NCBI GenBank assembly: GCA_016765075.1
Contig: JAESQP010000037.1
Location: forward strand, 1 to 43,113
From: Gammaproteobacteria bacterium
GTDB lineage: Bacteria; Pseudomonadota; Gammaproteobacteria; GCA-2400775
Direction of reading: 5' to 3'
Length of the DNA stretch: 43,113 nt
A program made the translations under genes and the position numbers. Positions 474 through 38,983 of this stretch are shown in pieces (position 1 is the first letter of the stretch; each line of letters opens with the position of its first letter). The notes beneath the pieces were generated by a model. That model saw only the letters and a program-made list of their open reading frames with translations. It had not been told where the DNA came from and ran no database searches.

Positions 474-1817
474 ATGAGCAAGGTAGAGAGTGTGATACAC
501 CCCAAGAGGCCTGACCCCCGTGTCAAGCACGGGGCAGGCTCCGGGAAAGCATGGGATGCTTCCTCGAAAATACCATCGCATTCCCTTAGGGTGCAGCCGC
601 GAGCGACAGTGGCAGTAAAAGTAGGCAAATATACCGTTGGTGCTGGCGCACCGGTCGTTGTGCAATCGATGACTAACACAGACACTGCCGATCTTGAGTC
701 AACTGTGCAGCAAGTTGCAGAGTTGGCAAAGGCTGGTTCAGAATTAGTGCGCATTACCGTCAATAACGAAGACTCTGCACGACAAGTTCCCTATATTCGA
801 GATCGTCTCGATGCTATGGGCGTTGATGTGCCGTTAGTGGGTGATTTTCATTTCAACGGCCACACCTTGCTTGAAAAACACCCAGCTTGCGCTGAGGCAT
901 TGGCCAAATATCGAATAAATCCTGGTAACGTCGGTAAAGGCAGTCGCCGTGACCCACAGTTTGCCAAGATGATTGAACTTGCCTGTCAGTACGATAAACC
1001 GATTCGTATTGGTGTTAACTGGGGTAGTCTCGATCAAGACTTATTAGCACGACTGCTGGACGATAACGCCGCCAGCAAAACACCAAGACCGCTTAATGAA
1101 GTGACTCATGCTGCTTTGATTGAATCGGCCTTGTCCAGCGCTGCCAAGGCTGAAGAGTTGGGTCTTGGCCATGACAAAATTATTCTGTCGTGCAAGATGT
1201 CAGGTGTGCAAGATCTCATCAAAGTTTATCGTGATTTGGCTGCTTGCAGTGATTACCCGCTTCATCTAGGTTTGACCGAAGCGGGTATGGGTACAAAAGG
1301 TATTGTCGCCTCGACCGCCGCGCTCAGCGTGCTATTGCAAGAAGGTATAGGCGACACCATTCGTATTTCGTTAACACCCGAGCCCGGTGGTGATCGCACG
1401 CAAGAAGTGTTAGTTGCACAGGAAATTTTGCAATCGCTAGGTTTGCGTGCATTTACCCCCACTGTTATTGCCTGCCCAGGTTGTGGCCGCACTACTAGCG
1501 AATATTTTCAACAGTTAGCACAAGATATTCAATCGTATTTGCGTCATCAAATGCCCGTTTGGCGTAAGCAATATCCTGGTGTTGAAGATATGACAGTTGC
1601 CGTAATGGGCTGTGTAGTAAATGGCCCTGGTGAAAGCAAGCATGCCAATATTGGTATCAGTTTACCTGGCACGGGCGAACGGCCTGTGGCGCCTGTGTAT
1701 GTGGACGGTGAGCGTCATATTACCTTAAAAGGCGATCACATTGCTAACGAGTTTCAGAGCCTTGTTAGTGATTATGTTGAAAAGAATTATTCCGCAGCGC
1801 AGGCTAAAACAAAATAG
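474..1817 (+). CDS. ispG: 4-hydroxy-3-methylbut-2-enyl diphosphate synthase (IspG/GcpE)
   Basis: Catalyses the penultimate step of the MEP isoprenoid pathway, reducing methylerythritol cyclodiphosphate to HMBPP with a [4Fe-4S] cluster. Visible motifs are [16 protein letters not shown], the barrel segment [28 protein letters not shown] and the cluster cysteines in CPGCGRT (Cys334, Cys337) and [10 protein letters not shown] (Cys380). The longer internal segments resemble xanthomonad and alphaproteobacterial IspG more than the shorter E. coli type. Starting at ATG 474 gives 447 residues; the SD is weak (GGGAG, 14 bases away), and the frame stays open to an ATG at 366. The conserved domain starts only near residue 43. 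Residues 9-41 are encoded by a nested P2-in-P1 repeat insertion (see 498-594), so this N-terminus is acquired sequence. Confidence 0.93.
498..594. repeat. P1 palindromic repeat with nested P2, translated inside ispG
   Basis: P1 begins CACCCCAAGAG at 498 and resumes after an interruption at about 556 with GATGCTTCCTCGAAAA, ending near TTAGGGTGC. The interruption (about 510-555) is a copy of P2, with the hairpin core CCCCGTGTCAAGCACGGGG followed by CAGGCTCCGGGAAAGC. P2 copies recur near 1866, 23803 and 26376; P1 copies near 23755, 25806, 38848 and 20640. The whole unit is open in the ispG frame and encodes [16 protein letters not shown] and a short tail. The nesting is inferred by comparison with the 23755 copy, where P1 runs on before P2 starts. 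Confidence 0.8.
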
Positions 1818-1849: not shown

Positions 1850-1912
1850 CGTAGCACCCCAAAAGCCTGCCCCCCGTGTCAAGCACGGAGCAGGCTCCGC
1901 GAAGGCGTGGCC
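1850..1912. repeat. P2 palindromic repeat, intergenic copy after ispG
   Basis: After GCACCCCAAAAG (the P1 left edge) comes a P2 unit with CCCCGTGTCAAGCACGG and CAGGCTCCGCGAAGGCGTGG. It lies 30-40 bases after the ispG stop, with no right half of P1 visible. The hairpin might act as a transcript end, but there is no T-run after it. Confidence 0.8.
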
Positions 1913-1956
1913 ACACTCTAATATATGTATAGTTTAATTTTGTTTTAGGTAAGTCA

Positions 1957-2987: not shown

Positions 2988-3060
2988 CCCAGTGTCCATT
3001 ATTTCGGCTAAAAGACTGCCGGAATGACGAATAGCTACTTTTATTCGGGTCAGGACACTA
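2988..3060. repeat. Degenerate palindromic element (GTCATTCC-type remnant)
   Basis: AGTGTCC (2991-2997) and GGACACT (3053-3059) form short terminal inverted repeats. The inside contains CGGCTAAAAGACTGCCGG and GGAATGACG, which match one arm of the 32-bp palindrome at 32582-32613 with a few changes. It looks like a decayed relative of the element at 32497-32656. Confidence 0.55.
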
Positions 3061-20538: not shown

Positions 20539-20738
20539 CTTAAGTAACCTCTGATGTGTCATGGACGATTATCTTATGATCAAAATATTCGGATTCGCTA
20601 ATAGCAGGCGCTTTAGGCGAGGCGCAAATCGCACGTAATAGTGGGGTGCGCCCTGAGGAAGTGCCTTGGGGTGTAACGCAGAAGCTGGGTATTTTGATCA
20701 TAAGATAATCGTCCATGACACATTAGTAGTTCCTTAAG
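20539..20738. repeat. MITE-like element with 33-bp perfect terminal inverted repeats
   Basis: Arms starting TGTGTCATGGACGATTATCT (20555-20587) and their exact complement (20690-20722) extend outwards, with mismatches, to CTTAAG on both sides. The inside holds a P1 relative, GCGCCCTGAGGAAGTGCC then TTGGGGTG (about 20647-20673), so an older palindrome appears to be nested in this one. It carries no coding potential worth noting. It lies between the peptidase and nudF genes. Confidence 0.85.
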
Positions 20739-23654: not shown

Positions 23655-23890
23655 GGGAATCTCTGATTAATTCGTAGAACGTGACCTTGCTGCTTAAAAT
23701 TCTTCAGCTCTTTGTTGCACTTTCAGGGTGCTTTCTGCGAGGTGCGAATCTTGCCACCCCAAGAGTGCTTCCTCAGAAATACTACCGCATCCTCTCAGGG
23801 TCTGCCCCCCGTGCCAAGCACGGGGCAGGCTCCGCGAAAGCGTGGGGGCGCAATAGCCCCACTCTTGACAAGATGGGCACCTCGGTCTAA
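23655..23890. repeat. Partial GGAGCCTCTGATTAATTC-family element with P1 and P2
   Basis: It begins with GGGAATCTCTGATTAATTC (the terminal repeat seen at 17351 and 38776). It continues with AAAATTCTTCAGCTCTTTG and GAATCTTGCCACCCCAAGAG, which match the right arm of the 38776 element in reverse, then P1 (23755-23801) and P2 (23802-23848). CACTCTTG (23861-23868) is the returning P1 arm. No right terminal repeat is seen. Short open frames here are repeat-encoded and not genes. Confidence 0.75.
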
Positions 23891-25536: not shown

Positions 25537-25929
25537 GGATAATTCATGAATAACGCAATTTCTCACTTGGCTCTTGACCCTAATCCCCAGATAGAAACAC
25601 GTATACTACACAAGCTCTTGATTTCACAGCAAAACAAAAAATAGCCGCCGAACCTATGGGTGCGACTGATATTTTTTGGTTCACTGTGAAATCAATATCT
25701 TGCACATTACCTCGCGTTTCTATCTGGGGATTAGAGCTTGATATTACAGTAGATTATCTTTAATTGACCGTACCCACCAGTACGACACTCAATCAGATAA
25801 TCTACTGTAATATCAATTACCTGCGCGCCCTGAGGGTTGTCGCTAGACAACCCGAGGAAGTATACCCCTCAAGGGGGTACTAAAAAGAGCTCTTGGGGTG
25901 CAATAATCTCGCGTATTCATGAATTATCC
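25537..25929. repeat. Composite of stacked palindromic elements
   Basis: Outer arms GGATAATTCATGAATAACGC (25537-25556) and GCGTATTCATGAATTATCC (25911-25929) enclose 353 bases. Inside are (a) arms starting TAATCCCCAGATAGAAACAC at 25581-25601 and 25713-25733 with one mismatch, with inner TTGATTTCACAG/CTGTGAAATCAA; (b) perfect 22-base arms starting TTGATATTACAGTAGATTAT at 25738-25759 and 25795-25816; (c) a P1 copy in reverse, about 25818-25905, including CTCTTGGGGTGC. It fills the whole gap between the binding-protein gene and the kinase gene; the kinase frame is open back into it. Confidence 0.85.
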
Positions 25930-25944
25930 AGGCTAGAGTATTTA

Positions 25945-27717
25945 ATGAGGGCATTACTAAGAATATTACTACCACACAATAGAGAGTTTCGACGCCAGAT
26001 AATGTTATTAGTGTCAGTCGGCATTCTTGTGTTAGCGCTGGTCTCTTCGCTATTAACTGCGTGGGTTACCAGTAAAAATTCACGTCAGCAGCTTATTGAT
26101 CAAGGCTTACAGCTGACCCAGAGTTTTGCTGAGCAAAGCGTATTAGCACTATTATTTGAATCTGCCGAAAACGCAGAAGATTTGGTTGCCAGCACCTTAT
26201 CTTTCCCAAATGTAATGTATGTTAAGTTATTGACACATGATGGAAAAATGCTGCTGCATGAAGGGGATGATTCGGTTGATAAACTCAAAAATATTCAGGC
26301 AAATGTGCGCGGAAGGCTGGGCTTCGAGGGTTCTTTTCAAGCCCCCCTTGAGGGGCGCACGCTGCACCCCGAGAGCCTGTTACCCGTGCCAAGCACGGAG
26401 CAGGCTCCGCGAAAGCGTAGGGGTAGGATGCCTGAAGTCGTTGAGCAGGGCGCGGTTTTACTCTGTGAAACGGATATCTACCTCTGTTTTCGCGCCCCTG
26501 TGTTTGATAGGCAGGCAGACGAACAAATAGTAGCGTTTATTGGTAGTGATCAAGCTCCAAATTTATTGGGGTTTGCCGACATAGTGATGAGTAAGGCTGA
26601 GTTAAATTCCCAACGTATAACGACTATTTTGCAATATACCCTAGTGTCTTTTGTGCTGGCCATTATCATTTTGCTTGTTTTACAAAAAATATTATCCCGT
26701 ATCGTGACGCCTTTGAGTGAACTGTCTGCATTAATGCACAAGCAAGACGTAGGGGAAAAGACATCACGAGCGAAGATTAGGGGGCCAGTAGAAATTCGAG
26801 ATATGGCACATGCTTTTAACTCTATGATGGATGTATTGGATGAACGCGATCTGCGTCTACGTAATCAAAATGACAATTTAGAGAACAAAATAAAGGAACG
26901 TACACGTGACTTGCGTGATGCGCGTGATGCGGCAATTCAGGCAAGCAAACATAAGTCAGCCTTCCTCGCCAATATGAGTCACGAGCTAAGAACACCTATG
27001 AACTCTGTACTGGGTTATACCAGTATGGTGCTTGAGGATGCTCGTAGCGATCATTTTAATCTTGCAACTTGTGTCGAAGACCTCAGCCGAGTCGACAATG
27101 CGGGTAAGCATTTGTTGTCAATGATTAATAATATTCTTGACCTGGCAAAAATTGAAGCCGGGCGCATGGAATTAGAATGTGGCACGGTTGATATTAAACA
27201 ATTGGCAGGTCAGGTTGAAGATAGTGTATTACCCCTGATTACGGATAAAAATAATAAATTAGTAGTGGACGTGGTGTCTGATGTCAGCTCTTTGTCGATG
27301 GATGCTGTTAAGCTGAGACAAATTTTAATTAACTTGCTGAGTAACGCCGCCAAATTTACCGAACAAGGCACCATAACACTGAAAATCGAGCACAGTATTG
27401 ATGCATTGTTTTGTTCTGTTGTTGATACCGGTATGGGCATGGATGAAGAACAGCAGCAGCGAATATTTCAAGCGTTTAAGCAGGGGAATATGACAACCAC
27501 CAAGGAGTTTGGTGGCACCGGTTTAGGTTTAACGATTTCGCAACATTTGTGTGCCTTGATGGGCGGCACAATTAAAGTGAAAAGTGACTTGGGAAAAGGG
27601 TCGGCGTTGTATTTCACATTGCCACTACCGTTGCAAGAGCACCAGTCAGAAGAAGCTCAGTTGGTAGGACTGGTGGGTAAGTATAGGCTGCCAGAGGAGA
27701 GAGCTTTGTCAAGTTGA
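25945..27717 (+). CDS. Membrane sensor histidine kinase with repeat-derived segment
   Basis: A 590-residue hybrid-less kinase. TM1 is near 20-41, the extracytoplasmic domain spans about 42-229, TM2 is near 230-248, then come HAMP (about 249-304), a coiled coil and HisKA with His346 in FLANMSHELRTPMNSVLGYT. The ATPase domain has LINLLSNAAKFT, DTGMGM and GGTGLGLTIS. No receiver domain is fused and no regulator is adjacent. ATG 25945 is chosen because the 36 codons upstream are encoded by the palindromic composite; those codons are also open. Residues about 126-161 (including TLHPESLLPVPSTEQAPRKR) are encoded by P1/P2 sequence and are unusually Pro/Arg-rich for this domain. The preceding binding protein may be its ligand sensor. 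Confidence 0.85.
   Translation: MRALLRILLPHNREFRRQIMLLVSVGILVLALVSSLLTAWVTSKNSRQQLIDQGLQLTQSFAEQSVLALLFESAENAEDLVASTLSFPNVMYVKLLTHDGKMLLHEGDDSVDKLKNIQANVRGRLGFEGSFQAPLEGRTLHPESLLPVPSTEQAPRKRRGRMPEVVEQGAVLLCETDIYLCFRAPVFDRQADEQIVAFIGSDQAPNLLGFADIVMSKAELNSQRITTILQYTLVSFVLAIIILLVLQKILSRIVTPLSELSALMHKQDVGEKTSRAKIRGPVEIRDMAHAFNSMMDVLDERDLRLRNQNDNLENKIKERTRDLRDARDAAIQASKHKSAFLANMSHELRTPMNSVLGYTSMVLEDARSDHFNLATCVEDLSRVDNAGKHLLSMINNILDLAKIEAGRMELECGTVDIKQLAGQVEDSVLPLITDKNNKLVVDVVSDVSSLSMDAVKLRQILINLLSNAAKFTEQGTITLKIEHSIDALFCSVVDTGMGMDEEQQQRIFQAFKQGNMTTTKEFGGTGLGLTISQHLCALMGGTIKVKSDLGKGSALYFTLPLPLQEHQSEEAQLVGLVGKYRLPEERALSS
26341..26432. repeat. P1/P2 repeat inserted in frame in the kinase gene
   Basis: GCACCCCGAGAG (P1 edge, 26363-26374) and P2 with ACCCGTGCCAAGCACGGAG then CAGGCTCCGCGAAAGCG. 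A CCCCCTTGAGGGG palindrome just before it also occurs in the reverse P1 at 25862-25880. The P2 frame used here (PSTEQAPRKR) differs from the one used in ispG ([10 protein letters not shown]). Exact boundaries are uncertain by about 20 bases. Confidence 0.8.
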
Positions 27718-32496: not shown

Positions 32497-32656
32497 TTCG
32501 AATGGCACTTACTTAAGACATTGAAATAGCGCTATTACGTCATTCCGGCATTCTTTTAGCCGGAATCCAAGCCTCAATAGCTGGATTCCGGCTAAAAGAA
32601 TGCCGGAATGACGGGAGTGGCTGATAAATGTTTCTTAAGTAAGCACCATTCTATTC
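32497..32656. repeat. MITE-like element with 32-bp inner palindrome
   Basis: The inner arms, CGTCATTCCGGCATTCTTTT and twelve more bases (32538-32569), and their exact complement (32582-32613), are separated by 12 bases. Outer arms carry CTTACTTAAGA at both ends (32508-32518 and 32632-32644 reversed). It separates the two citrate-synthase-like genes and could affect their shared message, since it should fold strongly in RNA. Confidence 0.85.
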
Positions 32657-38775: not shown

Positions 38776-38983
38776 ACTAGGGAGCCTTTGATTAATTCTG
38801 GGACAGCGAGATTGTGACTGAAATTTTTCAGGCCGAGACGCGAATCGCACCCCAAGAGTACTTCCTCAGGAATGCTAACGCATCCCTGAGGAAGTACTCT
38901 TGGGGTGGCAAGATTAGCAACGAAGAGCTGGAAAATTTTAGGTGCAAGATCGTGTTCCATGAATTAATCAGAGGCTCCTTAGT
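38776..38983. repeat. 208-base palindromic element, GGAGCCTCTGATTAATTC family
   Basis: Ends ACTAGGGAGCCTTTGATTAA and the complement of ACTAAGGAGCCTCTGATTAA. The P1 palindrome CACCCCAAGAGTACTTCCTC, 23-base perfect arms at 38848-38870 and 38885-38907, forms the centre, with ATGC-TAAC-GCAT at the tip. The sequences between core and ends (GAAATTTTTCAG and CTGGAAAATTTTAG) also match inversely, so the whole unit can form one long imperfect hairpin. It is the most complete member in the window. Short open frames through it are incidental. The gap 38984-39069 shows no gene. Confidence 0.9.

Follow-up and report, generated by a model that had tools for sequence, protein, structure and literature searches.

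The window, by which we mean the whole 43,113-nucleotide stretch of DNA that was analysed, carries a gene for a sensor histidine kinase. Its open reading frame (25837-27717) is open throughout and opens at a TTG at 25837; the ATG at 25945 is the likely start and gives the residue numbering of the original prediction. Codons ~126-161 (26320-26425) consist of two palindromic repeats in tandem, a P1-type element followed by a P2-type element, and the predicted derivation of these residues was right to within about 10 bases. The features of the window are as follows.

474-1817, plus strand: ispG, containing at codons ~9-39 a palindrome that is a mosaic of P2 and the sister family (Pfam, alignments)
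496-590, plus strand: P2-type copy with a sister-family right half, in ispG (repeat analysis, covariance model)
1853-1920, plus strand: P2 copy, intergenic (repeat analysis, covariance model)
23788-23855, plus strand: P2 copy, intergenic, joined to a sister palindrome (23753-23792) (repeat analysis, covariance model)
25841-25905, no strand assigned: another palindrome bearing the shared end CTCTTGGGGTGCAA, immediately before the likely start of the kinase (sequence)
25945-27717, plus strand: sensor histidine kinase with HAMP, HisKA and HATPase_c domains (Pfam; likely start ATG 25945)
26320-26425, plus strand: lineage-specific in-frame insertion, a net gain of ~32-34 codons for the extracytoplasmic domain (orthologue alignments, AF2 loop)
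26322-26361, plus strand: P1-type palindrome, canonical form TTGCACCCCAAGGGTTCNTTTCAATACCCCCTTGAGGGGTACAC, left end decayed (8 places in the genome)
26362-26425, plus strand: P2-type palindrome, where the kinase reads ...PVPSTEQAPRKRRG (repeat search, BLAST, covariance model)
38846-38909, no strand assigned: sister palindrome, which has the same ends (CACCCCAAGAG...CTCTTGGGGTG); tilS and hisF, elsewhere in the genome, contain members of its family (repeat analysis)

The repeat at 25841-25905 stretches the kinase reading frame to the TTG at 25837, and a start annotated there may be wrong.

Repeat analysis within the window returned a 62-nt P2 repeat in four copies, at 491, 1847, 23782 and 26357, and the kinase copy was 84% identical to the one at 1847-1908. 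The kinase copy was recovered by BLAST with an E-value of 3.9e-13 and by a covariance model, of which it is one of the 13 training sequences, with an E-value of 7e-22; the match is therefore not due to chance. As predicted, the repeat is read one base shifted relative to ispG: the kinase reads CCC GTG CCA AGC ACG (PVPST...) and ispG reads CCC CGT GTC AAG CAC (PRVKH...).

Two further repeats of the window are of other kinds. A perfect 32-nt inverted repeat, CGTCATTCCGGC...GCCGGAATGACG, CGTC-tagged, REP-like and unrelated to P2, was observed at 32538-32613 and 3001-3029. Two 58-nt inverted repeats, 86% complementary and 84 nt apart, lie in the intergenic region at 20539-20738.

Comparison of the kinase with its homologues

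An AlphaFold2 model built from a 25-sequence alignment predicted a PAS-like extracytoplasmic domain flanked by two long membrane-spanning helices, with the repeat segment in this domain between the two helices. Residues 125-163 were modeled as a disordered loop, mostly with pLDDT <50, while the remainder of the domain was mostly >90. The nearest solved folds include the periplasmic sensor domains of the WalK, CitA and LapD type, with modest scores.

The kinase orthologues of three congeners (G001-G003) each aligned as two blocks interrupted at the repeat, covering residues 1-122/157-569, 1-128/164-571 and 1-108/169-570. By protein and DNA alignment the ~32-34 extra codons were present in this genome only, at a loop of variable length that lies between '...LLHEGD' and 'AVLLCETD'. 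When an insert-free query was run against 369 genomes of the class, about 30 homologues matched continuously and the kinase of the window was split at the repeat. The aligned loop region comprised 45-61 residues in 29 homologues compared to 93 here, and the repeat segment was absent in all 29, three of which belong to the same genus. The orthologue comparison thus revealed an indel at the repeat both in the three congeners and in the other homologues, which together with the modeled disorder bears out the earlier suggestion of an added loop in the extracytoplasmic domain.

The P2 family and its host genes

The genome assembly is fragmented (163 contigs), and the census was compiled from searches and fetched stretches. 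Sequence searches located P2 at ~40 places in the 2.0-Mb genome, and the covariance model gave 74 matches including shorter 44-nt relatives. Four congeners carry almost no long-form P2. Out of 274 genomes of the class searched with P2, 7 matched, and the matches outside this genome were short and partial. The exact P2 core was not found in IMG/VR viral contigs, on which ground a phage origin was rejected; likewise P2 was rejected as a known RNA family, with no Rfam hit.

The P2 element is ~65 bp long, and its consensus folds as a three-way junction of an outer stem, a long hairpin and a short hairpin (dG -24.3, z -5.1). Covariation in P2 gave no signal beyond shuffles and the palindromic make-up, and was discarded as proof of RNA function. 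Imperfect terminal inverted repeats, TTGCACCCC...GGGGGCAC, delimit P2, P1, the sister palindrome and the 44-nt forms, and the end sequence TTGCACCCC(A/G)AG is common to P1, P2 and the sister palindrome.

Elements lying inside long open reading frames were compared with congeneric orthologues by searches followed by alignments. About ten conserved genes, the kinase included, carry in-frame palindromic inserts, each adding roughly 17-34 residues:

holB: +22 codons, element antisense to the gene, absent in congeneric orthologues
mutS: +19 codons, inverted pair, absent in congeneric orthologues
HDOD gene: +18 codons, sense, absent in congeneric orthologues
ChaN-like haem-uptake gene: +16-17 codons, sense, absent in congeneric orthologues
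DUF484 gene: +21-27 codons, antisense tandem, absent in congeneric orthologues
zapG/yhcB-like gene: +24-29 codons, antisense, absent in congeneric orthologues
Arc-type regulator: +21 codons, antisense, absent in congeneric orthologues
UPF0149 gene: several segments, sense, absent in congeneric orthologues
kinase: +32-34 codons, sense, absent in congeneric orthologues
tilS (L259:1294-2685): +16 codons exactly, sister palindrome
hisF (L242:623-1444, L266): +16 codons exactly, sister palindrome

Insert lengths vary from 48 to 102 nt. The cleanest junction was found in the HDOD gene, where the orthologue reads CGTTGC|AACAAA and the host gene CGTTGC[54 nt]AACAACAAA. According to the alignments the insert sites are length-variable in congeners, with a structure model for the kinase only, and the mutS insert lies where E. 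coli MutS is shorter. The least certain case is ispG, because its N-terminal copy leaves a downstream GTG start possible; at this end the ispG orthologues are 16-25 residues shorter. Congener G003 has the hisF insert as well, and G001 and G002 lack it. Its presence in two separate assemblies means that the insertion is not an assembly artefact and that such inserts are not always recent, and shows that this one persisted through a speciation.

Copies at two loci (L017, L039) lie upstream of likely starts and were not counted as intragenic. A copy in an M1 peptidase gene (L035), at a contig end, was also left out since the gene looks broken or misassembled; here (L035:2845-3216, end of contig C55) an M1 aminopeptidase fragment is apparently interrupted by a P2 hairpin and other repeat sequence, representing a broken gene or a misjoin. 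The UPF0149 gene (L034, L031; contigs C92, C143) contains several repeat-derived segments, including a duplicated block of 32 residues, and occurs as two slightly different partial versions at two contig ends.

Reading frames, selection and alternative explanations

Of the six frames of the P2 core, five are in use among the host genes. The sense PVSSTG frame is used by the kinase, HDOD, ChaN and UPF0149 genes and by an arm in mutS, and the sense PRVKHG frame by ispG and the second UPF0149 copy. On the opposite strand, the PCLTRG frame occurs in holB and mutS, the PVLDTG frame in DUF484 and zapG, and the PRAxHG frame in the Arc gene and possibly in the first arms of DUF484 and zapG. This last frame is the only one that is closed in the consensus, by a TGA. 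The Arc-gene copy has TCCAG for TCAAG, which changes the TGA to GGA, a core seen in no other extracted copy. The repeat has thus been put to independent coding use, in different frames, far more often than in the two cases originally noticed.

The original prediction had proposed that the repeat was selected for, or filtered to, open frames. Five of the six frames are open in the P2 consensus, while 3000 dinucleotide shuffles average 5.19, and a stop-codon check of the copies gave 4.25 open frames per genic copy vs 4.15 per intergenic copy, hence no excess openness in genes. Since shuffles and intergenic copies are equally open, frame openness is a by-product of high GC, and selection of the repeat itself for open frames was rejected. 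The filtering part of the proposal holds for insertion events, of which the survivors are in frame: P2 is not built for coding, and it is the insertions that selection filtered. The frame was kept in 11 of 11 genes, for which random joins give a probability of ~6e-6; it is thus selection on living genes that maintains the frame.

About 10 of the 39 extracted copies are genic, compared to roughly 85% expected under the assumed coding density. Such depletion from genes would be expected from strong purging of gene-breaking insertions, or from a preference for intergenic targets. Gene-breaking copies were sought only among the flanks of some intergenic copies. Four of these (L015, L018, L019, L021) have Pfam-matched genes on both flanks, and because the flanking genes differ these copies split no gene.

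The same data bear on whether the inserts are beneficial, as flexible or charged peptides or as a DNA or RNA signal, and are kept by positive selection. The presence of inserts in holB and mutS, which act in replication and repair, resembles the situation for intragenic REPs elsewhere (PMC3733652), and the one hisF insert that lasted through a speciation also fits with a benefit. However, use of five frames on both strands yields unrelated peptides, the hosts are functionally unrelated, and the open frames are explained by GC content. Moreover, the strong depletion of copies from genes and the location of inserts at loops, termini and length-variable positions speak against a benefit, and we consider this explanation improbable.

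Repeats can induce misjoins, and the insertions could be assembly or binning artefacts. Four contigs (C135, C143, C92, C55) do end at or near copies, and at the end of C55 the M1 peptidase gene appears broken. Against this, the ~10 conserved genes stay collinear and in frame across the inserts, which is where the probability of ~6e-6 for 11 genes under random joins applies, and the hisF insertion occurs in two separate congeneric assemblies. The inserts of 48-102 nt are also shorter than ordinary sequencing reads. An artefact is therefore highly improbable.

One could also regard the segment as an old and functional piece of the kinase sensor domain whose likeness to the repeat is incidental; in favor of this, it lies in frame within an intact, well-conserved kinase. 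It is missing in the three congeneric orthologues and in all other aligned homologues, its DNA matches copies in unrelated genes and in intergenic regions at 84-90% identity, and it is predicted to be disordered. The alignment of 29 homologues thus excludes the ancient conserved domain that would have spoken against the original prediction, and we give such an origin almost no weight; the kinase segment is a lineage-specific in-frame insertion, one of many. Equally negligible a prospect is intron- or intein-like removal of the segment after transcription or translation to give a normal mature kinase: the stable hairpin fold could in principle be processed or bypassed, but a spliced element would require neither the preserved frame nor the lack of stops seen in every host, no Rfam family matched in the window, and known self-splicing introns and inteins are larger than the element.

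Origin, mobilisation and relation to known elements

Given these data, we think it very likely that the kinase segment is a pair of non-autonomous palindromic selfish elements, P1-type then P2-type, that was inserted in frame in a variable surface loop of the PAS-like domain after the split from the congeners. The P2 family would have multiplied in this genome, and insertions that broke genes would have been purged. The survivors would be those that were stop-free, comprised a multiple of three bases and lay at loops or termini, and they would be translated as low-structure inserts of ~17-34 residues. We infer that the element transposes as a unit and that its inserts have next to no effect on function.

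The leading guess for the mobiliser, held tentatively, is a Y1/HUH transposase of the RAYT type that would act in trans on hairpins in single-stranded form. The genome has two Y1-type (RAYT-like) transposase genes, at C135:577-906 and C67:16992-17318. In a search restricted to Y1_Tnp, P2 was not found flanking either gene (L227, L228); the flanks carry other short repeats, of the GGGTCAG.../ACCCCATTGATCT and GGGTCAGGTCTAGATTC types, which ruled out P2 as a RAYT-flanking REP. One P2-related hairpin lies ~1.2 kb from one of the Y1_Tnp genes. Comparison of the HDOD, tilS and hisF junctions with orthologues revealed no constant target-site duplication, and no excision footprint could be fixed among the insert junctions.

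The nested hairpin is the least explained aspect of P2. This genome also contains a shorter bare form, TTGCACCCCAAGAGCCTGCCCCCGCGAAGGCGTGGGGGCAC, of which G001 and G002 have slight variants, and P2 equals this bare form plus a 24-bp hairpin. The hairpin module CCCCGTATCAAGTACGGGGCAGGCT is found between the arms of unrelated palindromes in several other gammaproteobacteria, as observed near position 1500 of five loci (L219, L221, L223, L224, L226), for example in TTCCGGA...TCCGGAA. Possibly, though we would not favor it, the tips of other palindromes serve as targets for insertion of a 24-28 nt hairpin module (CCCCGTRTCAAGYACGGGGCAGGCTC), which, nested into a 41-44 bp palindrome in this genome, gave rise to P2; P2 then burst and entered genes. 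A nested hairpin would keep reading frames because 24 bp is a multiple of three. If true, this would make P2 a hairpin-in-hairpin mobile unit.

In-frame palindromic inserts in unrelated conserved genes have been described as Rickettsia palindromic elements (RPE; PMC10969869), and Wolbachia palindromic elements (WPE) are cited as such in a passage of PMC3733652. Like P2 these are short palindromic repeats, with several families per genome, that occur in frame in unrelated conserved genes as well as in intergenic regions and are predicted to be translated. In contrast, the host of P2 is a gammaproteobacterium, the elements are 48-65 bp rather than the ~150 bp of RPE, and they are read in five frames on both strands whereas RPE are described as encoding a conserved peptide. 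Compared by features, with a structure model for the kinase only, P2 shares with the RPE/WPE type the ~40 hairpin-forming places, several unrelated conserved hosts with empty orthologues, and insert positions that the fold can accommodate.

Intragenic GTAG/CGTC REPs were reported in several free-living species (Di Nocera et al. 2013, PMC3733652). They are also palindromes, add 20-30 codons, occur as singles, dimers or clusters and often lie in replication or repair genes. The families described here differ by the shared end TTG[CT]ACCCCAAGAG. Copies of P2 mostly start with TTG[CT]ACCCC and rarely with GTAG or CGTC; GTAG precedes the stem only exceptionally, as at window position 1852. Furthermore, the GTAG type is linked to RAYT, whereas P2 flanks neither Y1 transposase gene. 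Coxiella QMITEs and enterobacterial RU/ERIC are small non-autonomous gammaproteobacterial repeats that sometimes form in-frame gene fusions (PMC5896051, PMC2759123). They are longer than P2 (103-168 bp in the RU series), and the in-frame cases seen in Coxiella concern hypothetical genes or a gene end; P2 inserts, in comparison with intragenic MITEs, are mostly internal and in conserved housekeeping genes.

The P2 core sequence was not found printed in the literature searched. On the features compared, P2 belongs to the same kind as RPE-like elements, to which it adds a new family from a new lineage. Our analysis suggests that it is best read as non-autonomous palindromic selfish DNA of the RPE kind, unusual in two respects: several families have the same ends, and a shorter palindrome encloses a 24-bp hairpin.

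Most of what is known about in-frame selfish palindromes comes from the Rickettsiales and their reduced, intracellular genomes; intragenic REPs were reported from other bacteria later on. In the present gammaproteobacterial lineage such DNA has entered about ten conserved genes, among them holB (replication) and mutS (mismatch repair), and sister elements lie in tilS (tRNA modification) and hisF (histidine synthesis). Repeat-encoded peptides of this kind look like shared motifs and are not homologous domains, which is a warning for annotation. With the empty sites in close relatives one can test directly how old the insertions are, which frames they use, how well they are tolerated and what mobilises them, and the inserts constitute a natural loop-insertion experiment on well-known proteins.
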